Below the pieces are notes generated by a model that was not told the origin of the DNA, ran no database searches, and was given only the letters and a program-made list of their open reading frames with translations. Shown here piece after piece: positions 3,244-60,602 of a DNA stretch of 64,000 nt. The DNA comes from Komagataeibacter xylinus. GTDB taxonomy: Bacteria; Pseudomonadota; Alphaproteobacteria; Acetobacterales; Acetobacteraceae. The stretch is from contig NZ_QQBI01000002.1 in assembly GCF_004302915.1 (NCBI RefSeq), positions 124,001 to 188,000 of the forward strand, given 5' to 3'. Position 1 is the first letter of the stretch. Each line of letters opens with the position of its first letter. The translations under genes were made by a program, and so were the position numbers.

Positions 3244-4218
3244 ATGTCCGACACCCGTCCCCGCCTTCTGCTGACCCAGCGCCAGACCCTTCCCGTAATG
3301 CAGCGTATTGAACAGAGCTTTAACATATCCGGCGTGCCGGAGCATAAACTCACAACGCGCGAACTGCTTGAGGGTGCCCGCGCCTTCCAGCCGCAGGCGA
3401 TCCTGACATCCACCGGCCTGCCGCTGCGCCATGACGATGTGGCCCAGTTGCCCGACTGCGTGAAAATCGTGGCCACCGTCAGCGTCGGCACCGACCATCT
3501 CGACATTGCGGCCCTGCACGCGCGCGGCATCATCGTGACCAACACACCCGACGTGCTGACCGACTGCAATGCCGACATGGCCATGCTGCTCATGCTTGCC
3601 GCGGCCCGCCGGGCGGGCGAATACACCACGCTGATGCGCCAGGGCTGGGGGCGCGGGCTTGCCATGGACGAGATGCTGGGCACGCGCATCAGCGGCAAGC
3701 GGCTGGGCATTGTGGGCATGGGGCGCATTGGCCGCGCCGTGGCAAAGCGCGCGCGCGGGTTTGACATGCGGGTGATGTATTCCAACCGCCGCCGCCTGCC
3801 CGCCGACCAGGAGGAAGGGGCCACCTATTTCAGCACCGTGACCGACATGCTGCCGCATTGCGACATACTGAGCCTGCACCTGCCTGCATCACCTGAAACC
3901 GATGGCATGATCAATGCCGACCTGCTGGGCCGCCTGCCAAAAGGGGCCATTTTCATCAATGCCGCCCGTGGCGCGCTGGTTGATGAGGATGCGCTGATCG
4001 CGGCGCTGAAAAGCGGCCAGCTTGCCGCAGCCGGGCTGGATGTGTACCGCAACGAACCCAACCCCGACCCGCGCTTCCTCGAACTGCCCAACGTGTTCCT
4101 GACCCCGCATGTGGGCAGCGCCACCACCGAGACACGCAGCGACATGGGCATGCTCGCCCTCGATAACGTGGAGGCCGTGCTGGACGGACGCGCCGCCCTG
4201 ACGCCGGTCAGCAGCTGA
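3244..4218 (+). CDS. D-2-hydroxyacid dehydrogenase (glyoxylate/hydroxypyruvate reductase type)
   Basis: A 324-residue NAD(P)-dependent dehydrogenase that interconverts 2-oxo acids and D-2-hydroxy acids in the cytoplasm. The Rossmann motif GMGRIG lies at about residues 158-163 and is preceded by GKRLGIV. The catalytic Arg ([13 protein letters not shown]), Glu (YRNEPNPDP) and His (LTPHVGSAT) are all present in the usual order. The substrate-side loop SVGTDHLDI resembles glyoxylate and hydroxypyruvate reductases. The gene is divergent from aat (82 bases between starts). Substrate assignment is by family resemblance only, so no gene symbol is given. Confidence 0.9.
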
Positions 4219-4243: not shown

Positions 4244-4444
4244 ATGGGCATTGCCGGTATTTTCGTCATCTTCACGCTGCTCGCCATCGGGCTGGACCTG
4301 CTTGCCCCCCGCTACGGGGGCATACTGGGCACGCTGCTGAAGTTCTATCTGGGCTTCATGCTGGTGGCGGCGTGCATTGAACTGCGCAACGCCTTCCGCC
4401 CAGCCGTGGCGAAAGAGGGGCGCGCGGGGCCGGAGACCACCTGA
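4244..4444 (+). CDS. Small inner-membrane protein, unknown function
   Basis: A 66-residue protein starting 25 bases after the dehydrogenase stop, with GGAGAAG about 7 bases before its ATG. Two hydrophobic segments (IAGIFVIFTLLAIGLDLLAP and FYLGFMLVAACIEL) flank a short Tyr/Gly turn, and the C-terminal tail is charged. It is probably translated from the same transcript as the dehydrogenase. No family is recognised, and the good ribosome binding site and coding pattern are the main support. Confidence 0.6.
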   Translation: MGIAGIFVIFTLLAIGLDLLAPRYGGILGTLLKFYLGFMLVAACIELRNAFRPAVAKEGRAGPETT

Positions 4445-4454
4445 CGCGACCTTT

Positions 4455-4510
4455 TCCTGAACAAGAGCTTCGAAAGAACGCCGCCTGCGAGAAAAAAGGC
4501 GGCGCTCCAG
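4455..4510. repeat. Palindromic repeat element, copy 1 (half element)
   Basis: This fragment of the AT-rich dispersed element retains the GAGCTTCGAAAGAACGCCGCC core and the hairpin whose arms are CGCCGCCT and AGGCGGCG, separated by an A-rich loop (about 4479-4505). The outer arm on the left is degenerate. It lies between the convergent 66-residue gene and the EcsC-family gene and could act as a terminator for either. Confidence 0.6.
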
Positions 4511-4520
4511 ACCGTTTGCC

Positions 4521-5366
4521 TCAGGCCTCGCGCGCCTGGCTTGCGGCGTGGGCCTTGAGGTCGGCCGCGGTGCGGCGCACTTCGGGCCCGTATTCACGCT
4601 CGAGCCGGCGGATGGTGAAATGCGCCTGCGCCACCGCGCGGTAATGCGACAGGAACGCCGCATTGAGCGAGGCGCCACACAACGCACCCGCCACCGGCAT
4701 CATCTGCAACGCGAATTTGCGCGACAGGCCCAGCCCGTAATGGGTGGCCACCTCGCTGACCAGCATCACCACCGGGCGGCCACGCAGCATGGCGCGGGCG
4801 GAGAAGTAGCCAAGCTCGCTTTCCTCTGCCGTGCCCTTCTTGGCGCCAAACGGGAAGGCCCGCAGCGCAAAGACTTCAAGGCAGGCCGCGCGCGAGGCTT
4901 CGGTGGAGAGATCCTCGCCATTCTCACGCGCAATGCGGGCAATCTCGCGCATGATGGCCATGGTGGTGAAGCCTACATCCGCCACCAGTCCCGGCAGGCC
5001 GGTAAAGCCGCCCACCGCGCCGGACACGGTCACCGCCGCCCTGAGCGCGGGGTCGCGCCACGTGCCACCGGCGCTGGCCTCGGCCGAGACATCATGCGGG
5101 CGGTCCATGCCCACCACCGAGAGGTCGAACGCGCGGCGGATGGCCGCCTCCGCCGTAGCCTGCAGCTTGGCCTGCAGCGTGGGGGCCAGCCCCAGCGTGC
5201 GCATGCCCAGCATGGCCGCCTGCCCCACGGCGCCGCCCATGAGGTCGGCCAGGCGCACGAGCACGCCCCGCCCGGTCTCGACACGTTCCAGCGCCTGCTG
5301 GAGTTCAGTGATACACGCGCTGTCCAGCGTCAGCGGCGCCAGTTCGTTTGCGGAACCTGCACTCAT
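4521..5366 (-). CDS. EcsC family protein
   Basis: A 281-residue protein of the EcsC family, named after a Bacillus ABC transporter operon protein of unclear biochemical role. Family features seen are the N-terminal amphipathic segment, a central AVTVSGAVGGFTGLPGLVAD hydrophobic stretch, then the FALRAFPFGAKKG segment and the C-terminal part with LQMMPVAGALCGASLNAAFL. The two hydrophobic stretches suggest peripheral or hairpin membrane association. The ATG at 5366 has AAGGGC at a good distance; the frame itself continues to 5426. It is transcribed alone. Confidence 0.8.
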   Translation of the reverse strand: MSAGSANELAPLTLDSACITELQQALERVETGRGVLVRLADLMGGAVGQAAMLGMRTLGLAPTLQAKLQATAEAAIRRAFDLSVVGMDRPHDVSAEASAGGTWRDPALRAAVTVSGAVGGFTGLPGLVADVGFTTMAIMREIARIARENGEDLSTEASRAACLEVFALRAFPFGAKKGTAEESELGYFSARAMLRGRPVVMLVSEVATHYGLGLSRKFALQMMPVAGALCGASLNAAFLSHYRAVAQAHFTIRRLEREYGPEVRRTAADLKAHAASQAREA

Positions 5367-6384: not shown

Positions 6385-7239
6385 TTGACCGTTTTCATTG
6401 CAGGGACAGGTGCCCCCGGCACGGATGGATCAACCTTGAACGCAACGCAGAGCCTTACCGCGCGAACCGGTAACCTTTTTCACCGTTATGCCAACCCTGG
6501 CCGTTTCCTGCGCATGGGGGCAAAGCTGCAGCCGTGGCTGACATGGCCCGCCCTTGTGCTGTCGGTTGCCGGAATCGTGTGGGGGCTGTTCTTCTCCCCC
6601 GCTGACTGGCAGCAGGGCGACAGCGTGCGCATCATGTACGTGCATGTGCCCACTGCATGGCTGGCATCATCAGGTTATATGGGCCTGGCGGTGTGCTCGC
6701 TGCTCTCGCTGGTGTGGCGCCATCCGCTGGCCGACCTTGCGGCGGTGGAAATCGGGCCGGTGGGCGCATCGATTACCGCCGTGTGCCTGGCCACCGGCTC
6801 GCTGTGGGGCAAGCCGATGTGGGGCACGTGGTGGGTGTGGGATGCGCGGCTGACCTCGGTGCTGGTGCTGTTCTTCCTGTATCTGGGCCATATCGCGCTC
6901 ATCCGCGCGTTTGACGAGCCGCAGCGCGGCTACCGCGCCGCCGCCATCCTTGGCCTTGCGGGCGCGGTTGACCTGCCCATCATCAAGTTCAGCGTGCAGT
7001 GGTGGAATACCCTGCACCAGCCCGACAGCATTACGGTGACCGGCGCGCCCACCATGTCCACCTCCATGCTGTGGCCGCTGGGCCTGACCACGCTGGGCTT
7101 TACGCTCGGCTTCGCCGCCATCGTGCTCGCCCGCCTGCGCGCCTCGGTCATGGAAAGCCGCGTGCGCACCATCCTTGCCGCCAACCGGGGCCGCCAGTCC
7201 GCTGCCGCCGCCCCCCAGCCCGATCGTGCCACCCCATGA
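6385..7239 (+). CDS. ccmC: Haem exporter/handling protein CcmC
   Basis: A multi-spanning inner-membrane protein of system I cytochrome c maturation that presents haem in the periplasm to CcmE. The Trp-rich WWD-type motif is clear (WGKPMWGTWWVWDARLTS), and so are the six hydrophobic segments, including WPALVLSVAGIVWGLFF and the C-terminal MLWPLGLTTLGFTLGFAAIV. Conserved His residues occur near HVPTAW and NTLHQP. The 284 codons given start at a TTG. Family members usually begin just before the FHRYANPGRFLR segment, so a start at TTG 6436 or nearby is also possible. First gene of ccmCDEFGHI; its stop overlaps the ccmD start (ATGA). Confidence 0.93.
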   Translation: MTVFIAGTGAPGTDGSTLNATQSLTARTGNLFHRYANPGRFLRMGAKLQPWLTWPALVLSVAGIVWGLFFSPADWQQGDSVRIMYVHVPTAWLASSGYMGLAVCSLLSLVWRHPLADLAAVEIGPVGASITAVCLATGSLWGKPMWGTWWVWDARLTSVLVLFFLYLGHIALIRAFDEPQRGYRAAAILGLAGAVDLPIIKFSVQWWNTLHQPDSITVTGAPTMSTSMLWPLGLTTLGFTLGFAAIVLARLRASVMESRVRTILAANRGRQSAAAAPQPDRATP

Positions 7240-9902: not shown

Positions 9903-10471
9903 GCGCGCAGCCTTCTTCCCCCACGCGCCGCCGCCTGCTCATGGCGGCCCCGCTGGTTGTGGCGGGCGGGGTTGGCGTGGGCTTCTGGCGCATGCTCTCG
10001 GGCATGACAAAAGGCTCGTTCGACCCGCATGACATCCATGCCCCGGCCCTCAACCGCCCCGTGCCCGATTTCGCGCTGCCCGACCAGGCACCCGGCACCG
10101 GCTTTTCGGCCGCCGACCTGCGGGGGCTGAAGGCGCCGGTGCTGGTGAACTATTTCGCCTCGTGGTGCATTCCCTGCGTGGCCGAGATGCCGGTGCTCAA
10201 CGCGCTGAAGGACAGGCTGCCGATCTGGGGCATTGCCTACAAGGACAAGCCCGAGCATGCGCTGGGCTTCGTGCAGCGCGCGGGCAACCCCTATGCCCGC
10301 ATCGCTGCCGACCATGACGGGCTGGCCGCAATTGACTGGGGCGTGTCCGGCGTGCCGGAAACCTTCCTGATCGGGCCGGGCGGGATCATCCGCTGGCACA
10401 CCGCCTCCCCCATTACCGAGGCCATGATCACCAATACCATCATGCCGCTGGCGGACAGCCTCAAACCATGA
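9899..10471 (+). CDS. ccmG: Thiol:disulphide interchange protein CcmG/DsbE
   Basis: A 190-residue membrane-anchored periplasmic thioredoxin-like protein. An N-terminal anchor (RRRLLMAAPLVVAGGVGVGF) is followed by a TlpA/DsbE domain with active site FASWCIPCVAEMP (Cys about 90 and 93) and the cis-Pro region GVSGVPETFLI. It keeps apocytochrome CxxCH cysteines reduced for haem ligation. The start overlaps the ccmF stop (ATGA) and the stop overlaps the ccmH start. Confidence 0.95.
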   Translation: MSAQPSSPTRRRLLMAAPLVVAGGVGVGFWRMLSGMTKGSFDPHDIHAPALNRPVPDFALPDQAPGTGFSAADLRGLKAPVLVNYFASWCIPCVAEMPVLNALKDRLPIWGIAYKDKPEHALGFVQRAGNPYARIAADHDGLAAIDWGVSGVPETFLIGPGGIIRWHTASPITEAMITNTIMPLADSLKP

Positions 10472-11941: not shown

Positions 11942-11983
11942 TCCCGCTGCCCATCCCCTTAAAATGCCTTAAGAAATAATAGA

Positions 11984-12059
11984 AGTTTTGGGGTGCCGCC
12001 TTTTTTCAAAAAGGCGGCGTCTTTCGAAGCTTTTTGAAAAAAGCTTCACCCAAAATTTT
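11984..12059. repeat. Palindromic repeat element, copy 2 (complete)
   Basis: A complete copy: the outer arms are GTTTTGGGGTG (left) and CACCCAAAATTTT (right). They enclose hairpin 1 (GCCGCCTTTTTT / AAAAAGGCGGC) and hairpin 2 (GAAGCTTTTTG / AAAAAGCTTC). It occupies the whole gap between the convergent SDHAF4-type gene and the next minus-strand gene, ending only a few bases before the latter's stop codon. Confidence 0.85.
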
Positions 12060-12062
12060 CGC

Positions 12063-13850: not shown

Positions 13851-16541
13851 ATGATAGCACGCCTGTTTTCCAAGACATTATGCCTCTCCCTCCTGTTATG
13901 CGGTAGCACGCTTGCCACGCTCCCGCAGGCAGGGGCCGCAACGCCCGCGCCCCAGCCTGACATGCCGCTACAGGCCACCCTGCCCAACGGGCTGCGGGTC
14001 GTGATCGTGCCTGACCGGCTGGCCCCGGTCGTGAGCACCGAGATCAATTACCTGGCCGGTTCGGCCGCGGCACCGGCGGGCTTTCCCGGCACGGCGCATG
14101 CGCTCGAGCACATGATGTTTCGCGGCAGCGAGGGGCTGGACCGCGACCAGCTTGCCGCCATCGGGGCAAGGCTGGGCGGCAACTACAATGCCGACACGAC
14201 GGAAAACGTGACGCAGTTCTTCTACACCGCCCCGGCGGAAAACCTCGACGTGCTGCTGCATATCGAAGCCCTGCGCATGAAGGGCCTGACACTGGCCGCC
14301 GATGACTGGGCGCATGAGCGCGGCGCGATCGAGCAGGAAGTCTCGCGCGACCTGTCGAGCCCCGGCTATGTGTACCTGGCCCGCCTGCAATCCATCCTGT
14401 TTGCAAACACGCCTTACGCGCATGACGCGCTGGGCAGCAGGCCATCCTTTGACAAAACCGACACGGTCCTGCTGCGCCGCTTCTATCGCGACTGGTACGC
14501 CCCCAACAACGCTATTCTGGTCATTGCCGGTGATGTTGACCCCGCCCGCACCATGGCGCAGGTGCGCGCGGCCTTTGGCCCCATTCCCGCCCGCGCGCTG
14601 CCCGCGCGCCCGCAGGTCCATCCCGGCCCGGTCCATGCCCAGACGCTGCATTTCCCCACCGACTACCCGGTGGGGCTGGTGGCCATTGCCAGCCGCATGC
14701 CCGGCCAGAACAGCCATGATTATGCCGCCGCCCGCATTCTGGCCGATGTGCTGTCCAGCCAGCGCGGGGCGTTGTACGAGCTCGTGCCGCAGGGCCGCGC
14801 GCTGCTGTCGAGCTTCGATTTCGTGACCAAGGCGGATGCGGGCATCGGCATCGCCATTGCCGCCTTCCCCAAGGGCGGCGAGGCAGCCCCCCTGCAGGCC
14901 CGCATGCAGGATATATTGAAAACCCTGCGTGAAAACGGCGTACCCGCCGATCTGGTCGAGGCCGCGAAACGCAAGGAACTGGCCCAGCTCGGTTTTGCCG
15001 CCAACAGCATTGCAGGTCTTGCGGAAAGCTGGTCGGAGGCCCAGGCCATCATGGGCCTGCAATCGCCCGATGATGAAGCCACCGCCTTTGCCGCCGTCAC
15101 ACCGGAGGACGTCAACCGCCTGGCCCGGCAGGTGCTCGACCCGCAGCAGGCCATCACCGCCATTCTCACCCCGCGTGATGGCGGCCACCCGGTCGAGGGC
15201 AAGGGTTTTGGCGGCTCGGAATCCTTCGCCTCCACCCCCGATCACCCCGTCAGCCTGCCGCAATGGGCCAATGACAGCCTGATGGGCGTGAATGCCCCCA
15301 CGCCCTCCGCCCAGCCTGCCGCCTTCACGCTGCCCAACGGGTTGCGCCTGATCGTGCGCCCGGCCACGGTCAGCCATACGGTCAGCCTGTACGGCACCAT
15401 CCGCCAGAACGAGGACATGCAGGAGCCACCGGGCAAGGAAGGCATTGCCGACATAACCGATGAGATGTTCCGCTACGGCAGCACCACGCATGACCGGATC
15501 GGGTTGCAAAAGGCGCTTGATGACATTGCCGCAACCGAAAGTGCCGGTTCCGATTTCAGCCTGAGCGTGCTCACGCCCGATTTCGAGCGCGGGCTTGACC
15601 TGCTGGCGGAAAACGAACTGCACCCCGCCCTGCCCGAAGCCGCCTTCAGGGTGGTGCAGGCCAATGCGGCGGCCTCGCTGTCGGGGCTACTGCATTCACC
15701 TGACTACCTGTTTGGCCGCGCGATGCAGGCCGCCGTCTCGCCCAAGGGTGATCCGTCGCTGCGGCAGGCCGAGCCTGCGGGCATCATGAAACTCAGCGTG
15801 GCGGACTGCCGCGCCTTTTATGCCGCCGCCTACCGGCCTGACCTGACCACCATCGTCATTACCGGCGACATCACGCCCGATGCCGCCTACAAGGCCATTG
15901 CCCGCACCTTTGGTGCCTGGCAGGCCACAGGCCCGACCCCCGTAGTCGACCTGCCGCCGCGCCCCGACAGCACGGCCAGCGTGACCCGCGTGCCTGACCC
16001 GTCCAGCACGCAGGCTACGGTTTCCCTGCCCGAGAGCCTTGGGCTGACGGCGACAAACCCGGAGCATTTCGCGCTCAACCTGGGCAACGAGATTCTGGGT
16101 TCGGGCTTTTCATCCCGCCTGTATCGCGACCTGCGGGTGCGCACCGGCTATGTCTATACCGTGCGCAGCCACCTGACATGGAAGCGCCAGCGCGCGGCCT
16201 ACAGCATCTCGTTCGGCGCTGACCCGCAGAAGGTGGACGCCGCGCGCGCTGCTGCGATACAGGACATCATCGCCATGCAGACCCAGCCTGTCAGCACGGA
16301 TGAACTGGCCATGGCGCGGGCGGGCATGCTGCGTGGCCTCGCGCTGCAATCGGCCAGCCTCGACACCATTGCCGCGGGTTACCTGCATTTCAGCGACCTT
16401 GGCCTGCCGCTCAACCAGAACGATATCGCAGCCCGGGCCTATTATACCATGAGTGCGGAAGCGATCCGCGATGCCTTCCGCAAATGGATACGCCCCGATG
16501 ACCTTGCCGAGATTATCAAGGGCCCACCCGCAACACGGTAA
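13851..16541 (+). CDS. M16 family zinc metallopeptidase, two-domain, exported
   Basis: An 896-residue protein with an N-terminal signal peptide (FSKTLCLSLLLCGSTLATLP). The first M16 domain carries the inverted zinc motif HALEH (His83, Glu86, His87) in GTAHALEHMMFRGSEG, with the downstream Glu in RGAIEQEVSRDLSSPG. The second half (from about residue 490, FTLPNGLRLIVRP) is an inactive M16 domain without HxxEH, as usual for fused pitrilysin/PqqL-like peptidases. It probably degrades peptides in the periplasm. The gene is divergent from the beta-lactamase-fold gene. PQQ-locus M16 proteins are similar, but no pqq genes are adjacent. Confidence 0.9.
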   Translation: MIARLFSKTLCLSLLLCGSTLATLPQAGAATPAPQPDMPLQATLPNGLRVVIVPDRLAPVVSTEINYLAGSAAAPAGFPGTAHALEHMMFRGSEGLDRDQLAAIGARLGGNYNADTTENVTQFFYTAPAENLDVLLHIEALRMKGLTLAADDWAHERGAIEQEVSRDLSSPGYVYLARLQSILFANTPYAHDALGSRPSFDKTDTVLLRRFYRDWYAPNNAILVIAGDVDPARTMAQVRAAFGPIPARALPARPQVHPGPVHAQTLHFPTDYPVGLVAIASRMPGQNSHDYAAARILADVLSSQRGALYELVPQGRALLSSFDFVTKADAGIGIAIAAFPKGGEAAPLQARMQDILKTLRENGVPADLVEAAKRKELAQLGFAANSIAGLAESWSEAQAIMGLQSPDDEATAFAAVTPEDVNRLARQVLDPQQAITAILTPRDGGHPVEGKGFGGSESFASTPDHPVSLPQWANDSLMGVNAPTPSAQPAAFTLPNGLRLIVRPATVSHTVSLYGTIRQNEDMQEPPGKEGIADITDEMFRYGSTTHDRIGLQKALDDIAATESAGSDFSLSVLTPDFERGLDLLAENELHPALPEAAFRVVQANAAASLSGLLHSPDYLFGRAMQAAVSPKGDPSLRQAEPAGIMKLSVADCRAFYAAAYRPDLTTIVITGDITPDAAYKAIARTFGAWQATGPTPVVDLPPRPDSTASVTRVPDPSSTQATVSLPESLGLTATNPEHFALNLGNEILGSGFSSRLYRDLRVRTGYVYTVRSHLTWKRQRAAYSISFGADPQKVDAARAAAIQDIIAMQTQPVSTDELAMARAGMLRGLALQSASLDTIAAGYLHFSDLGLPLNQNDIAARAYYTMSAEAIRDAFRKWIRPDDLAEIIKGPPATR

Positions 16542-16548
16542 AAGCAGA

Positions 16549-16632
16549 TGAAAGTTTTTGGTGAAGCTTTTTTCAAAAAGCTTCAGAGAACGCCGCTTTT
16601 TTGAAAAAAGGCGGCACCCAAAAACTTTCATT
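16549..16632. repeat. Palindromic repeat element, copy 3 (best-preserved)
   Basis: This is the clearest copy. The outer inverted repeat ATGAAAGTTTTTGGTG (left) pairs with CACCCAAAAACTTTCAT (right), with one extra C. Inside lie hairpin 1 (GAAGCTTTTTTC / AAAAAGCTTC) and hairpin 2 (CGCCGCTTTTTTG / AAAAAAGGCGGC). On RNA or single-stranded DNA this would form a three-way junction. It lies between the convergent M16 peptidase and rpsA genes, next to a separate bidirectional terminator. Confidence 0.9.
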
Positions 16633-16645
16633 CTTTTCTCTCGAC

Positions 16646-16686
16646 ATAAAAAAAGGGCGGTGCATTCCTGCACCGCCCTTTTTTGT
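16646..16686. terminator. Bidirectional intrinsic terminator between M16 peptidase gene and rpsA
   Basis: A 10-base GC-rich perfect stem (AGGGCGGTGC / GCACCGCCCT, 16655-16680) with loop ATTCCT is flanked by A8 on the left and T6 on the right. It is therefore a canonical terminator for transcripts arriving from either side. It serves rpsA on the minus strand and the M16 gene on the plus strand. Confidence 0.92.
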
Positions 16687-25416: not shown

Positions 25417-25486
25417 TGATGCATCCGGGCTGGAGAAGTAGCCATGGCGTACGTGGCGCGATGGCGACACAGAAACTTGTTTCAGA

Positions 25487-25585
25487 TGAGAGACCGGCCA
25501 TAACCCGGACGAAACTCACTACGGCTGCTTCCTTCCGGACCTGACCAGGTTAGCAAGGTATCCGTCTACAACCGATCTCCCGAGC
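25487..25585 (-). ncRNA. ffs: 4.5S signal recognition particle RNA (small bacterial type)
   Basis: The minus strand contains the universally conserved SRP domain IV sequence: ACCTGGTCAGGTCCGGAAGG, directly followed by AAGCAGCC. That is the asymmetric loop and GGAA tetraloop bound by Ffh. The ends pair over about ten bases (GGGAGATCGG at 25581-25572 with CCGGTCTCTC at 25497-25488, two wobble pairs), which fixes the approximate limits at about 99 nt. Ends are approximate. Location directly upstream of dnaX is common in alphaproteobacteria. Part of the SRP pathway for membrane protein targeting. Confidence 0.95.
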
Positions 25586-32752: not shown

Positions 32753-32782
32753 ACAGGAGCCAGAAATGGCTCCTGTTTTTTT
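32753..32782 (+). terminator. Intrinsic terminator after clpA
   Basis: A 9-base stem (ACAGGAGCC / GGCTCCTGT) with loop AGAAAT is followed by T7, 27 bases after the clpA stop. It separates clpA from the repeat element and ynfA. Confidence 0.92.
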
Positions 32783-32799: not shown

Positions 32800-32886
32800 A
32801 ATAAAAATTTCCGGGTGCTGCCTTTTTCAAAAAGGCCGCTTGTTTCAAAGCTTTTTAAAAAAAGCTTCACCAAAAAACTTCTTATT
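32800..32886. repeat. Palindromic repeat element, copy 4 (complete)
   Basis: The outer arms AATAAAAATTTCCGGGTG and CACCAAAAAACTTCTTATT enclose an imperfect GC-arm hairpin (CTGCCTTTTTC / AAAAAGGCCGC) and an AAGCTT hairpin (AAAGCTTTTTA / AAAAAAGCTTC). It is placed between the clpA terminator and the ynfA start at 32905, so it forms part of the ynfA 5' region. Confidence 0.82.
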
Positions 32887-32904: not shown

Positions 32905-33234
32905 ATGCTCACCGCCGCCATCTACATTCCCGCAGCCTTTGCCGAAATTGGCGGCTGCTTCTGTTTCTGGGCCTGGATGCGCCTTGGCCGCTCGCCGCTG
33001 GTACTGGTGCCGGGCTGCCTGTCGCTGGTGCTGTTTGCATGGTTGCTGACCTTCAGCCCCGCTGACAATGCGGGCCGGGCCTATGCCATTTATGGCGGCG
33101 TCTACATCGTGGCCAGCCTGGTGTGGTCCTGGCTGGTCGAAGGCCTGCCGCCTGACCGGTGGGACATACTGGGCGCTGCGATCTGCCTTGCGGGGGCTGC
33201 ACTGATCCTGCTCGCCCCACGCGCCCATCCCTGA
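32905..33234 (+). CDS. YnfA/UPF0060 family small membrane protein
   Basis: A 109-residue protein with four hydrophobic segments ([57 protein letters not shown] and [16 protein letters not shown]). The AFAEIGGCF and AxGGVYIxxS motifs of the YnfA family (a relative of small multidrug resistance proteins) are clear. The frame stays open upstream through the repeat element to 32815, but the ATG at 32905 with AAGGG just upstream gives the family N-terminus. Transport function is not established for the family as a whole. It is bracketed by repeat copies 4 and 5. Confidence 0.93.
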
Positions 33235-33272
33235 AAGAACACCGCCTTTTAAAAAAGGCGGCATCCAGAAAA
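33232..33272. repeat. Palindromic repeat element, copy 5 (half element)
   Basis: Only the right half is present: TGAAAGAACACCGCC, then a T4/A6 loop region, AAGGCGGC and ATCCAGAAAAC. The 5' end supplies the ynfA stop codon (TGA 33232-33234). The hairpin CCGCCTTTT / AAAAGGCGG lies between convergent ynfA and the next minus-strand gene and is well placed as a terminator. Confidence 0.75.
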
Positions 33273-33281
33273 CCTCTTCAA

Positions 33282-36349: not shown

Positions 36350-36427
36350 AAAGAAATTCCGGGTGAAGCTTTTTTTCAGAGGGCTTCAAGAAACGCCGTC
36401 CTTAAAAAAGCACCCGGAAACTTTTAA
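36350..36427. repeat. Palindromic repeat element, copy 6 (complete, diverged)
   Basis: Left arm AAATTCCGGGTG and right arm CACCCGGAAACTTTT pair well, apart from a small mismatch. Inside are an AAGCTTTTTTT/GGGCTTC hairpin and a weakened ACGCCGTCC/AAAAAAG region. It lies between the convergent yqgE and HAD-phosphatase genes, 26 bases after the yqgE stop. Confidence 0.8.
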
Positions 36428-45911: not shown

Positions 45912-45963
45912 AGTTATTTGAAATTTTTCAAAAAAAGGCAGCACCCAAACCTTTTATTATTGT
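45912..45963. repeat. Palindromic repeat element, copy 7 (diverged)
   Basis: A reduced copy retains a TTGAAATTTTTCAAAAAAAGG core followed by CAGCACCC and AAACCTTTTATTATT, i.e. the right-hand part of the element. It fills the gap between the convergent cobD and cobQ genes and runs up to the cobQ stop. Confidence 0.6.
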
Positions 45964-48046: not shown

Positions 48047-48582
48047 TTCATCTCCATTGGCAGGCCTGCCACCACAAAGACAACACGAGCGGCCTCACGC
48101 GCAATAGCCTGATGCATAAGCCCCGCCTCATCACGGAAGCGCCGCGCCAGCGCATTGTCGGGCACGATGCCCTGCCCCACCTCGTTCGAGACCAGTACCG
48201 TAGGCCCCGCGCGGCGCTCAAGGGCTGACAGCAGGGCGCGGGTTGCTGCCCTGATATCGTGCCCGCCCAGCATGAGGTTGGTCAGCCACAGGGTCAGGCA
48301 ATCAACCAGCACGGGGCTTGCGCCCGCCCCGTCGAGCGCGCGGGGCAGGTCGAGCGGCTCCTCTATCGTGCGCCAGTTTTCTCCCCGGCGGGCGCGGTGG
48401 CGGGTGATGCGGGCATCCATTTCGCCATCATGGGGCTGGCAGGTGGCAAGATAGGTCCATGGGGCAGGCCAGGCGGTGAACAGCCCCTCGGCAAACGCAC
48501 TCTTGCCCGAGCGCGCGCCGCCGAGCACGAAAATGCAGCCCTGCAGGCCTGCTGGCATGGTCCGGGCGCCATTGGCGGTCAT
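48043..48582 (-). CDS. cobU: Adenosylcobinamide kinase / adenosylcobinamide-phosphate guanylyltransferase
   Basis: A 179-residue bifunctional enzyme that phosphorylates adenosylcobinamide and then attaches GMP. The P-loop is IFVLGGARSGKSAFAEGLF, with the catalytic His in RITRHRARRGENWRTIEEPL, the guanylyl site DCLTLWLTN and the closing VLVSNEVGQGIVPDNALARR. The ATG at 48582 has GGGGGAG 7 bases upstream. The frame extends to 48729 without support and would overlap cobT. In alphaproteobacteria the gene is often called cobP. Confidence 0.95.
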   Translation of the reverse strand: MTANGARTMPAGLQGCIFVLGGARSGKSAFAEGLFTAWPAPWTYLATCQPHDGEMDARITRHRARRGENWRTIEEPLDLPRALDGAGASPVLVDCLTLWLTNLMLGGHDIRAATRALLSALERRAGPTVLVSNEVGQGIVPDNALARRFRDEAGLMHQAIAREAARVVFVVAGLPMEMK

Positions 48583-57599: not shown

Positions 57600-57685
57600 A
57601 TCAAAGTTTCGGGGTGCTTCTTTTTTTAAAAAAATCAGTATCTTTCAAAGCTTTTTGAAAAAAGCTTCACCAAAAACTTTTTACT
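57600..57685. repeat. Palindromic repeat element, copy 8 (one hairpin degraded)
   Basis: The outer arms are AAAGTTTCGGGGTG and CACCAAAAACTTTTT. The inner AAGCTT hairpin is intact (CAAAGCTTTTTG / AAAAAGCTTC). The GC-arm hairpin has decayed to a T7/A7 run. It lies between the ansB-type gene start and the stop of the DszC-like gene, whose stop codon is inside the right arm. Confidence 0.82.
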
Positions 57686-58973
57686 GATATGGCCCCGGCT
57701 CCGGCACCCAGCCCGTCAGCAGGTTGCGCCCGATTTCAGCATTTTTCCAGTCCACGGGGTCATGCAGCGACAGGGTGCGGGCATCGCGCCAGTAACGGTC
57801 CAGCCCTTGGGCTGCATCCGTGCCCCGCGCGCCTGCCGCAGCGGGCGCATCGCTGGCCGCACGCAGGGCCGCGCGCGTGGCGACCGAACGCGCAGCACTT
57901 GCCGCCATGGCCACCGTTGCGCGGGGCACTTCGCCCTGCTCATGCTGGTCAAGCAGGCGGCCCGCCTGCGCCACGCTGCACCAGGCGCCGGACAGGTCGG
58001 CCCCGATCTCGCCCAGCAGGCGGCGCACATAGGGGTCCTGATCCGCGCTTTCCACCCCTGCCGCCCCCCACGGGCGCGCGTGTTGCGGCACAAAGGCACA
58101 GACCGCGCGCAATGCGCCAATGCCGATACCGGTCAGGATGGCGCTGAAACCGGCCTGAAAGCGCAGGGCGACATGCTGCGGCAGGTCGGTATCAGGCGCG
58201 AGCGCGTTCCAGAAATCATCAACCACCACATTCTCCAGCGTAACGGTGCCGGAATCGGTCGCGCGCTGGCCCATGCGGTTCCAGTCATGGTGAAAGCGCA
58301 GCCCCGCCGCCCCGCGCGGCACGAGGTCCATGCGCACGCCCGCGCGCACGTTCCCCCCCATCTGCTGCGCCCGCAAGGGATCGAAAGAGGACACGGCCAC
58401 AAGGTCCGCGCCCGAGGCCCCCGTGGCATAGATCTTGCGGCCTGACACGACATGCGTGCCAGCATGACCTGGCCTGGCCAGTGTCTGCATGAAGCTGTCG
58501 GCCCTGCGCCCGTTCTCGGCCACGGCCATGCCAAGAATGACGTGCTCATGCACGATGCGGCGCGCCAGCACGGGCCTGAGCGCTGCGGGCGCATAGGCAA
58601 ATATCTCGCGCACCAGATCGTCATGCACCTTGTAGATCTGGGCAATGGCGGGGTCCGCCACGGCAAGGCGCAGCATGAATTCGAGCGAGAGTTCCTGCGT
58701 CACCCCAAGCCCACCCCAGGCGCAGGGCACCGCAAGGGCCAGCACGCCGGTGGCCTTCAGCGCCGCCATGGCCTGGTGGGGGTAGCCACCCGCGCGGTCA
58801 CGCTGCGCTGCCGTGGGGGCGATGACCGTGTCGATCACCGCCTGCGCCCGCAGCAGCACGGCACCCACGTCACCCTGCACGGAACGGGCAGGAAACAGGT
58901 CACCTAACAGCGGGGGCAGGCACGGATCCTGTGCCGATGAAATGCTCATGCGGCACGATAGGAAGGATGGCAT
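57681..58973 (-). CDS. Acyl-CoA dehydrogenase-fold flavoprotein of the SfnB/DszC monooxygenase group
   Basis: A 430-residue protein of the acyl-CoA dehydrogenase fold. The N-terminal helical part is followed by LALAVPCAWGGLGVTQELSL, VAENGRRADSFMQTL, GRKIYATGASGADLVAVSSF and MGQRATDSGTVTLENVVVDD. The C-terminus has the group signature ARTLSLHDPVDWKNAEIGRN. Relatives are FMNH2-dependent monooxygenases acting on sulphur compounds (DszC, SfnB), but no sulphur or reductase genes are adjacent. The start may be 58973 or 58949. It is bracketed by repeat copies 8 and 9. Confidence 0.87.
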   Translation of the reverse strand: MPSFLSCRMSISSAQDPCLPPLLGDLFPARSVQGDVGAVLLRAQAVIDTVIAPTAAQRDRAGGYPHQAMAALKATGVLALAVPCAWGGLGVTQELSLEFMLRLAVADPAIAQIYKVHDDLVREIFAYAPAALRPVLARRIVHEHVILGMAVAENGRRADSFMQTLARPGHAGTHVVSGRKIYATGASGADLVAVSSFDPLRAQQMGGNVRAGVRMDLVPRGAAGLRFHHDWNRMGQRATDSGTVTLENVVVDDFWNALAPDTDLPQHVALRFQAGFSAILTGIGIGALRAVCAFVPQHARPWGAAGVESADQDPYVRRLLGEIGADLSGAWCSVAQAGRLLDQHEQGEVPRATVAMAASAARSVATRAALRAASDAPAAAGARGTDAAQGLDRYWRDARTLSLHDPVDWKNAEIGRNLLTGWVPEPGPYQ

Positions 58974-58999: not shown

Positions 59000-59089
59000 A
59001 AAAAACAAATGTTTCCGGGTGTCGCCTTTTTTAAAAAACGATGTTCTTTCAAAGCGTTTTGAAAAAGCTTCACCAAAAACTTTTACACC
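59000..59089. repeat. Palindromic repeat element, copy 9 (complete)
   Basis: Left arm AAATGTTTCCGGGTG and right arm CACCAAAAACTTTTACA enclose GTCGCCTTTTTT/AAAAAACGATG (weak) and CAAAGCGTTTTG/AAAAAGCTTC (good) hairpins. It begins about 27 bases upstream of the DszC-like gene and ends just before the MFS gene stop. Confidence 0.82.
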
Positions 59090-59091
59090 AA

Positions 59092-60318
59092 TCAGCCACC
59101 GGCCTGCCTGCGGGCTGCGGCGCGGATGTCGCTTAGCGACAAAAGCCAGATCACGAAGCCGCCCATGGCCAGGCAACTGCCCACCCAGCCCACGGATTCC
59201 CAGCCCAGCCCGGCGCTGATCGCCATGCCGCCCAGCCAGGGGCCAATGGCGTTGGCCATGTTGAAGGCGCTCTGGTTCATCGCTGCCGCCAGCGCCTGGG
59301 CATCGACCGCCACACTGAGCAGGCGCGACTGGATGACCGTGCCCAGCCCCCCGCCACAGCCGATCAGGAACACGATGGGCATCATGCCCCACACGGAATG
59401 CACCGAACCGGGAAAGCCCGCGAGTGCTGCCGCATTGACCAGAAGTGTTCCGCCAATGGTGGGCATCATCTTGTGGTCGGCCGCCCATGCACAGGTCATG
59501 GTGCCAACCGTCATGCCCACGCCAAATACCGCCAGCAGCACGGGCGTCATGTAGGCAGGCGCATGCGTGACCTCCTGCAAGATGGAGGCAAGATAGGTAT
59601 AGACGCAGAAGATGCCGCCAAAACCTACCACGCCAATGCCCAGCGTCAGCCACACCTGCCGGTTTTTAAGGGCGCGTATCTCGGTCATGGCGCTGGCGTT
59701 GGGGCGCGGCGGGTCGGTGGGCACGAAGCGCATGATGAGCAGCATGGTGCATAGCGCCAGCCCCGCAATCAGCACGAACGCCCAGCGCCACCCCACCAGC
59801 ATGCCCAGCCCGTTGGCCATGGGCACGCCGCCAATGGTCGCGATGGTCAGGCCCAGCACCACGCGGGCCACGGCCTGCGTGCGGCGGTTTTCAGGCACGA
59901 GGGCGGAGGCGACAATACCAGCCGTGCCAAAATAGGCCCCATGCGGCAACCCGCTGATGAACCGGCACAAAAGCAGGCACAGGTAATTGGGAGCGAGTGC
60001 TGTCAGCCCATTACCAATGACATAGAGCACCATCATGCCAATCAGCAGGTATTTACGGCTGCATCTGGCCCCCAGCATGGCAATGAGCGGCGCACCCACG
60101 CACACGCCTGCGGCATAGGCCTCGATGGCGTGGCCCGCCTGCGGCACGGTCACATGCATGCCTGCCGAGATCATGGGCACGAGGCTCATAGCCGCGAATT
60201 CAGCCGTGCCGATGGCAAAGCCGCCAAGGGCAAGAATAAAAAAGATCAGGCCGGGGCTGCCAACGTGGCGGATGGGCGCAGGCGCCCCTCCACGGTCATG
60301 GATCATTGTCTGTGTCAT
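59092..60318 (-). CDS. MFS transporter (AraJ/YdhP-like DHA1 efflux family)
   Basis: A 408-residue protein with about twelve hydrophobic segments. The start has LALGGFAIGTAEFAAMSLVP, the motif of the DHA1/arabinose-efflux type, followed by ALMIGM-equivalent KYLLIGMMVLYVIGNGLTAL and the motif-A-like segment AVARVVLGLTIATIGGVPMA. The C-terminal half has VGFGGIFCVYTYLASIL and GGGLGTVIQSRLL. The exported substrate cannot be predicted. The ATG at 60318 (MTQTMIHDRGG) is preferred over 60360. No operon partner. Confidence 0.9.
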   Translation of the reverse strand: MTQTMIHDRGGAPAPIRHVGSPGLIFFILALGGFAIGTAEFAAMSLVPMISAGMHVTVPQAGHAIEAYAAGVCVGAPLIAMLGARCSRKYLLIGMMVLYVIGNGLTALAPNYLCLLLCRFISGLPHGAYFGTAGIVASALVPENRRTQAVARVVLGLTIATIGGVPMANGLGMLVGWRWAFVLIAGLALCTMLLIMRFVPTDPPRPNASAMTEIRALKNRQVWLTLGIGVVGFGGIFCVYTYLASILQEVTHAPAYMTPVLLAVFGVGMTVGTMTCAWAADHKMMPTIGGTLLVNAAALAGFPGSVHSVWGMMPIVFLIGCGGGLGTVIQSRLLSVAVDAQALAAAMNQSAFNMANAIGPWLGGMAISAGLGWESVGWVGSCLAMGGFVIWLLSLSDIRAAARRQAGG

Positions 60319-60477
60319 GCATATGCTCTGGACGAATGGAGTAAAGCGCGCGTGTTGCACGCAACAGGTTGCGCGCCGTTACACCCATGCCGACATGCCG
60401 ACAAGCCCCGTTGGGCAATGTATTTCCACCCGCGCCCAGGCCATGCGGGCAAAAGGGGCGGTAAACGCCCGCCATGG

Positions 60478-60516
60478 CATTTTACAAAGCTTTTTGAAAA
60501 AATCGTCGCCTGGAAC
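60478..60516. repeat. Palindromic repeat element, copy 10 (fragment)
   Basis: A fragment with ACAAAGCTTTTTGAAAAAATCG, i.e. one inner hairpin arm pair of the family, in the 400-base gap between the MFS gene and the small membrane peptide gene. The outer arms are missing. Confidence 0.5.
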
Positions 60517-60602
60517 GCGCTGATACTGGTCCCGCGCAGGCAAGCATGACGCCTGTACGTGCAGGCAGGCGCTTCATGGTCGCTCAGGCAAAATTCCGGG
60601 CA

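Follow-up and report, generated by a model that had tools for sequence, protein, structure and literature searches.

A dispersed three-way-junction palindrome at gene 3' ends in Komagataeibacter xylinus and its relationship to a MITE

The window analyzed here, which is the whole 64-kb stretch of the K. xylinus genome, carries several copies of a dispersed palindrome, the Y element, whose similarity within the source genome goes well beyond chance and whose full-length members are a MITE by the criteria tested (TIRs, a target duplication and no transposase inside). The explanation that we favor is that the Y element is a MITE-derived, orientation-independent element of gene 3' ends that probably would serve as a bidirectional terminator or as a barrier at RNA ends, a function suggested by its position and predicted fold; taken as a whole, we consider this explanation to fall just short of an even chance.

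Architecture and window copies of the Y element

The full Y element at 16549-16631 (plus strand; covariance model, CM, 106.4 bits, E 9.8e-29) is in the canonical orientation, which we define as the AAGCTT hairpin coming first. The left outer arm GAAAGTTTTTGGT (16550-16562) is predicted to pair with the right outer arm ACCCAAAAACTTTC (16616-16629), and between them the sequence and the predicted fold place hairpin 1, GAAGCTTTTTTCAAAAAGCTTC (16563-16584), the linker AGAGAAC and hairpin 2, GCCGC...GGCGGC (16592-16615), all on the plus strand. The predicted fold of this element is a closed three-way junction, and the outer arms around two hairpins are as the preliminary description of the window had them. 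The profile (HMM) core of the element, 16553-16627, begins 11 nt 3' of the TAA of the gene at 13962-16541(+).

The preliminary description had listed ten copies of a dispersed palindrome family in the window. The family is real, since BLAST of an 80-nt window copy against the source genome goes far beyond chance: there were 107 match rows at E<=10 among the best 40 of 299 candidates that were scored, with opposite-strand rows of the same places counted, and the best match beyond the query itself had an E of 2.1e-31. Nine of the ten listed copies were recovered by the HMM search of the window and the identical nine places by the CM at E<=0.001, the CM having been built from 35 copies that include the five best window matches (E<=6.6e-18). 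The tenth, at 45912-45963 (plus strand), had no match in the window with the HMM (E<=0.01) or the CM (E<=1) and was recognized by eye only; it is possibly a decayed right-half remnant.

For comparison we used relatives of the source genome, divided into a near clade of six, 92-96% identical to it in a reference gene (4-8% divergence), and a far clade of four genomes, 82-83% identical. The full Y element at 11979-12061 (minus strand, CM E 5.6e-27) lies in the convergent gap 11942-12062 and is present in nine of ten relatives, partially in two of these. The full element at 32801-32882 (minus strand, CM E 9.7e-22) lies in a tandem gap 3' of a conserved ordinary terminator, and was detected neither in the relative G006 nor in any of the four genomes of the far clade; G007 could not be aligned there. 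Two further full elements are on the minus strand, at 57600-57682 (CM E 7.7e-21; HMM core 57605-57678, 2 nt 3' of the stop of gene 57681-58949(-)) and at 59005-59085 (CM E 6.6e-18; HMM core 59011-59081, 10 nt 3' of the stop of gene 59092-60306(-)). Three plus-strand copies lie between convergent genes: a diverged full copy at 36351-36427 (CM E 2.2e-10), a truncated copy at 33193-33278 (CM E 3e-5; HMM 33232-33271, core positions 31-72), which is complete or almost complete in G018, G014, G009, G012 and G004, and a truncated copy at 4433-4519 (CM E 0.001; HMM 4452-4509, 27.2 bits). A weak left-half copy is found at 60463-60521 (minus strand, CM E 1e-4; HMM 60476-60516, positions 2-42, 23.7 bits).

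Abundance and distribution

The HMM (E<=0.01) identified 63 non-overlapping copies in a 458,060-base sample of the source genome comprising 374,060 bases of contig C13, 20,000 of C57 and the window, and 42 of the 63 aligned as full copies; by simple extrapolation about 500 copies are expected across the 3.63-Mb genome. Matches were present in all 19 genus genomes searched, source included, at 37 to at least 150 per genome. The Acetobacteraceae family sample, in which filters drop weak matches, gave matches at E<=1e-6 in 33 of 249 genomes and 15 of 102 genera. A plasmid or phage origin was rejected, as six plasmid records (five Komagataeibacter, one Novacetimonas) and no phage record matched at E<=1e-5. 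Identity with a described RNA family was also rejected, as none of the Rfam matches at element loci reached its gathering score: six element loci gave 12 matches at E<=0.01, in two of the six loci and all below gathering scores, and at the gathering score the sole match in the window was SRP RNA (the bacterial small SRP RNA, at 25486-25580 on the minus strand). We found no description of the Y family in the literature on acetic acid bacteria (repeats, REP, MITE, IS1031, terminators) within a limited coverage of subscription journals.

Full-length members and their transposon relatives

One additional copy in the relative G016 carried extended ends. The TIR of these ends, GAGACTGTTTGAAAA, occurs at 24 places in the source genome at <=1 mismatch, and a reversed control pattern at none. 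Four complete TIR-bounded units of 161-165 bp contain the Y core in the source genome; all four have an identical TTA or TAA on both sides, and their sequences hold no transposase gene. A fifth unit, with a TTA duplication, is nested within another Y element (C57, near 4514-4725), and the whole unit matched at at least 20 places in the six near relatives.

Transposons with nearly the same ends exist in the genus. The 2.7-kb transposon L195 of G013 (72-2775) has the TIR GTGACTGTTTGAAAAGT, TGA on both sides, passenger ORFs and a 268-aa transposase that matches PF13340 and whose plasmid relatives are annotated as IS5 family. Perfect copies of GTGACTGTTTGAAAAGT, with no matching duplication, also surround an IS5-family transposase gene on a K. 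saccharivorans plasmid (L337), and the MITE TIR is one mismatch from the TIRs of these two transposons. The interior neighbors in L337 differ from those in L195 and include an annotated FkbM methyltransferase. L195 is the only one of 30 PF13340 loci taken from the genus with a TIR pair around the transposase. The suggestion that the family might be a non-autonomous mobile element is supported by the TIRs and TTA/TAA duplications, together with the transposons of near-identical TIR and IS5-family transposase, and the matching TIRs point to an IS5-type transposase as the probable mover. A search for an autonomous partner within the source genome found no TIR pair at transposon spacing in this draft of 101 contigs; the source MITEs may thus be orphans, or repeats may have been collapsed in the draft.

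IS1031, as an IS5-type element, has TIRs and a 3-bp target. The full Y unit resembles IS5-type (DDE) MITEs in being short and geneless, with TIRs and a 3-bp TTA/TAA duplication. It differs from them in that its branched core outlives the TIRs, in that most sampled copies are TIR-less and at gene ends, and in that the core architecture also occurs in genera whose samples lack the TIR at <=1 mismatch. IS1031 is described as a known group in K. xylinus (PMC6559022).

The MITE assignment applies to the full-length subset only, because just one of 60 sampled source copies aligned to the full unit reaches both TIRs. The left TIR is reached by seven of the 60 and the right by nine, 41 span core positions 60-115, and coverage declines gradually outward. 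At the C57 full-unit locus (48217-48378; G016 and G006 not resolved) G018 has the core between worn flanks, the core is inverted in G007 and both inverted and truncated in G017, and in G014 the unit is absent with a different flank, so that this is not a clean empty site; no clean empty site was obtained in the relatives. At the C16 locus (G007, G016 and G006 not resolved) G018 has an intact right TIR, which has decayed in G017 and G014. From the graded coverage and the orthologs at these two loci we infer that the core-only copies descend from the MITE. The core may instead have an older, separate origin and have been captured later by the MITE: the sequence sampled from five other genera contains the TIR at no place at <=1 mismatch and at two places at <=2, and the absence at <=1 mismatch is what raises this possibility.

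Comparison with REP sequences

The preliminary description had also raised REP-like sequences and suggested a search for a linked RAYT-type transposase. A REP/BIME-type family that owes its dispersal to a RAYT transposase has in its favor that Y elements, like REPs (PMC3733652), are located at 3' ends between convergent and tandem ORFs, and that half units form inverted pairs in some other genera. The search, however, gave a negative answer. No Y1 transposase (PF01797) was found in the source genome, and among 30 further element-bearing genomes one was over the cut-off (G158), with one sub-threshold match (G181); full copies have DDE-type TIRs and target duplications; and CGTC REPs are reported to be missing in Acetobacteraceae (PMC3733652). 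We therefore rejected this origin as highly improbable. Neither a GTAG nor a CGTC tag was seen when the 35-copy consensus was read by eye. The Y element shares with REP, BIME and REPIN sequences (PMC3733652) the high copy number of palindromes downstream of genes, and differs in being without a RAYT, in the DDE-type ends of full copies and in being a 75-nt three-way junction, whereas a REP is a palindrome of 20-40 nt. The G158 Y1 transposase is at L185 (G158 C11:52773-53135, E 1.8e-42).

Location relative to genes

We compared the positions of the copies, relative to genes called with a home-made codon-usage finder, with 2000 random placements in intergenic gaps. The 63 source copies comprise 34 in convergent, 25 in tandem and two in divergent gaps, and two at sample edges that were excluded from the counts; none lies inside a called gene, and three run into the end of a gene, by 24, 6 and 3 nt. 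A stop codon lies within 50 nt of 51 of 61 copies (random mean 12.3, maximum 24); convergent copies number 34 of 61 (random mean 9.1, maximum 20) and divergent copies 2 of 61 (random mean 18.9, minimum 8), so the 3'-end location, mostly between convergent genes, that had been noticed in the window is borne out against random placement. The source sample has 49 convergent gaps that measure 20 nt or more, and 32 of these contain a Y element. The tandem copies are 12 in sense and 13 in antisense orientation. In the relatives, whose sample is largely orthologous, 130 copies comprise 87 convergent, 42 tandem (21 sense, 21 antisense) and one divergent.

Position counts were also made in other genera, from stretches picked around existing matches. 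Among the copies that could be placed, those with a stop no more than 50 nt away were 5 of 6 in G038 (random mean 1.7, maximum 6; none unplaceable), 19 of 27 in G136 (random 6.4, maximum 13; four unplaceable), 9 of 9 in g68 (random 1.6, maximum 6; two unplaceable), 9 of 14 in G194 (random 2.6, maximum 7; none unplaceable) and 13 of 15 in G158 (random 4.2, maximum 9; two unplaceable). The convergent excess is clear in g68 (7, random maximum 3) and G158 (8, random maximum 6), is at the limit in G038 (4, random maximum 4), and was not shown in G136 (10, random maximum 12) or G194 (6, random maximum 12).

The same location could be reached by relics that have no function. Neutral MITE relics would have been inserted at TTA/TAA, which is enriched outside genes in this GC-rich genome, and purged from genes, promoters and operons, with their likeness upkept by conversion between copies and by arm-mediated inversion; insertion at these triplets and purging elsewhere would let functionless copies accumulate 3' of genes. 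We regard this as a realistic possibility, although one we would not bet on. TIR ends abut TTA/TAA in 21 of 26 cases (in four of 26 exactly at a called stop codon), and 1026 of the 2562 TTA/TAA triplets of the sample are non-coding, compared with a non-coding share of about 13% of the sequence. Within tandem gaps, however, 20 of 25 copies are closer to the stop than to the next start, at a median distance of 23 versus 102 nt, which neutral accumulation does not readily explain.

Retention and inversion in related genomes

Presence at orthologous sites also speaks against neutral relics. At 19 loci with a source element, and with unalignable gaps excluded from the counts, an element or fragment is present in 92 of 97 gaps of the near clade and in 27 of 56 of the far clade, while 48 other 3'-facing gaps without a source element have one in 1 of 262 near and 1 of 141 far. 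The core is moreover kept where the TIRs have decayed. The sequence of the core, on the other hand, is hardly better conserved than the remaining gap, as neutral relics would lead one to expect: near-clade identity is 0.881 for the core and 0.851 for the remainder, and in the far clade the core has 0.824 in the same orientation and 0.897 when inverted, the values for comparison being 0.842 for the remainder of the gap, 0.843 between non-orthologous copies and 0.779 after shuffling (16 short pieces). Far-clade orthologs resemble each other no more closely than copies from different loci do, and the identity figures do not tell constraint apart from conversion among copies or from simple age.

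Among one-to-one orthologs, inversion was seen in 7 of 81 near-clade and 10 of 24 far-clade comparisons, three of the seven near inversions coming from one locus where the source copy is a fragment. There are three clearest cases. At the window 16542 locus the G018 element is inverted, its linker unchanged and its flanks like those of G006; at C13:279961 the G016 element is inverted between the same flanks, with a different linker; and at C13:234238 it is inverted in G006. With the core inverted at the same site, any role of the core would have to be orientation-independent.

Covariation and a possible role at transcript ends

The preliminary description had noted that substitutions in the arms often preserve pairing, which stands in part. 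Under the named structure 88.1% of cells are paired in the 35 full copies, and 14 of 32 pairs show changes at both positions, a number that averages 7.5 after shuffling and was reached in 2 of 500 shuffles, but RNAalifold predicted no consensus pair on the same 35-copy alignment; compensatory change within the genus is present but weak, as would be expected of neutral relics. In 57 same-orientation ortholog comparisons, paired positions are 88.4% and unpaired positions 81.8% identical; double changes number 37 compared with 20 expected, 15 of them from Watson-Crick to Watson-Crick, and single changes give GU in 108 cases and break the pair in 157.

An asymmetry between GU and AC was used as a sign of selection at the RNA level. 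The 140 full genus copies have 191 GU, 154 AC (p 0.052) and 148 other mismatches, with GU:AC of 42:36 in hairpin 1, 39:76 in hairpin 2 and 110:42 in the outer arms (mostly two columns). Counted by gene direction in tandem copies over all helices, GU:AC is 48:33 in sense and 31:29 in antisense (p 0.40), which gives no strand-specific RNA signal overall; one hint comes from the outer arms alone: 20:5 in sense and 12:14 in antisense (Fisher p 0.020, post hoc and uncorrected, with orthologs that are not independent), and 9:1 versus 9:7 (p 0.099) in source copies only. This skew is in the direction predicted by an RNA role.

A role at the level of DNA would account for the lack of an overall GU excess over AC. 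Supercoil relief by protein-bound repeats has been proposed for E. coli BIMEs, and the cruciform-prone Y, rich in A/T tracts, could be a putative site for a topoisomerase or nucleoid protein that relieves supercoils between convergent genes. Orientation independence and the convergent bias fit such a site, and so does the recurrence across genera of TTTTTTCAAAAA tips and AAAGTTTTT arms with differing stems, as seen in a best 30 matches biased towards likeness; the 25 of 61 placed copies that lie in tandem gaps do not, and we consider this role improbable.

Ordinary terminators, made of a hairpin and a T-tract, occur beside some elements. One, at 16655-16684, adjoins the Y element at 16549-16631, as seen from the sequence and orthologous gaps, and is present in the orthologous gap of 10 of 10 relatives, including G007 and G014, in which the HMM found no Y match. 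Another, at window 32753-32782, is present in nine of nine aligned relatives, upstream of the Y element that is found in part of the near clade. Substitution of the Y element for ordinary terminators was rejected, as there is no association in either kind of gap: an ordinary terminator is present in 9 of 32 convergent source gaps with a Y element and 5 of 17 without (relatives 29 of 83 and 11 of 41), and in 3 of 24 tandem source gaps with and 10 of 155 without (relatives 2 of 39 and 42 of 408). This lack of a link is again compatible with neutral relics. At C13:234238 the source and two relatives do not have the ordinary terminator that is present in the other seven, and these three hold a Y element. 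A U-tract tuned to gene direction was likewise rejected: the T-rich stretch on the right belongs to the element itself and is the same in sense and antisense copies, indifferent to the direction in which the gene is read. As regards the terminator role first proposed for these palindromes, position, orientation-independence and conservation are compatible with it, but two of the tests are null and the third is null overall, with the outer-arm hint.

In comparison with bidirectional intrinsic terminators (PMC5381666), the Y element is similarly an inverted repeat behind stops, with a strong predicted RNA fold, flanking A/T runs and convergent genes. It differs in that the stem is branched and the closing arms AT-rich, and in being without U-tract tuning, a simple terminator scan calling 21 of 141 full copies.

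The neutral relics are a serious rival because the three function tests are without clear support and the core exceeds the gap around it in conservation only marginally. Setting the proximity to stops, the occupancy of convergent gaps, the retention, the core outlasting the TIRs, the indifference to orientation and the outer-arm hint against the null tests, we place termination or RNA-end protection slightly below one half. The course of events that we would propose under the MITE-derived 3'-end element starts from a full unit of 161-165 bp in which the TIRs GAGACTGTTTGAAAA flank a Y core of two T/A-tipped hairpins, predicted to be closed by AAAGTTTTTGG/CCAAAAACTTT arms. An IS5-type transposase would insert this unit at TTA/TAA sites, stop codons among them; the TIRs would then be lost, as in most sampled copies, and the core would stay. 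Copies in genes or divergent gaps would be absent or rare, and those at gene 3' ends, mostly older than the split of the near species, would be retained. The transcript of either strand would fold into a long branched hairpin a few nt 3' of the stop, which may terminate transcription or block 3'-to-5' decay and so insulate convergent genes.

Implications and variants in other genera

A more far-reaching proposal is that the MITE core has been adopted as the default end-of-gene device of the genus, seeded by IS5-type transposition, fixed, stripped of its TIRs and homogenized by conversion and in-place inversion, with parallel Acetobacteraceae versions that have exchanged stems. We hold this to be somewhat unlikely; if true, about two thirds of convergent junctions, by the gaps sampled, would carry such a device. 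Should the proposed function be correct, hundreds of transcript ends in a genus of industrial use would derive from what remains of a transposon, and bacterial end-of-gene signals would be directly demonstrable as spreading mobile DNA. Regardless of function, the family accounts for many intergenic palindromes in these genomes, which is relevant to annotation and cloning in these bacteria, and it provides a defined MITE, together with its probable transposase, as well as a natural setting in which to test whether a short palindrome inverts in place.

In six other Acetobacteraceae genera (g5, g21, g34, g50, g68, g80) the best copies retain arms of the AAAAGTTTTT type and tips of the TTTTTTCAAAAA type, and their complementary stems are quite different in sequence. 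The comparison covers the best 30 matches, which were chosen by the model and are therefore biased towards likeness of arms and tips; read with this bias, the aligned sequences suggest stronger structural evidence across genera than within the genus.

Among the matches listed for an AT-rich half-unit pattern, 11 of 80 are from records labelled Acidobacteria, Clostridia-type or Nitrospirae (L225, L228, L241, L257, L269, L274, L275, L280, L281, L283 and L295); they may reflect chance in AT-rich DNA, mis-binning or transfer. In g34 and g50, half units consisting of an arm, one hairpin and a T/C-rich linker occur in permuted pairs, in the order hairpin-arm, spacer, arm-hairpin, at L156 (G194 C90) 3370-3505, at L157 (G194 C162) 6489-6621 and 15846-15989, and at L146 (G136 C15) 13880-14010, and the half unit may be the real mobile unit in these two genera. 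Half-unit matches in the named-collection loci have an inverted arm upstream only in 33 of 150 cases, downstream in 18 and neither in 99. In g68, at L155 (G202 C1:370001-390000), long forms of 120-130 nt, in which additional sequence separates the two hairpins, are found at 6428-6549, 10197-10324 and 16563-16684.
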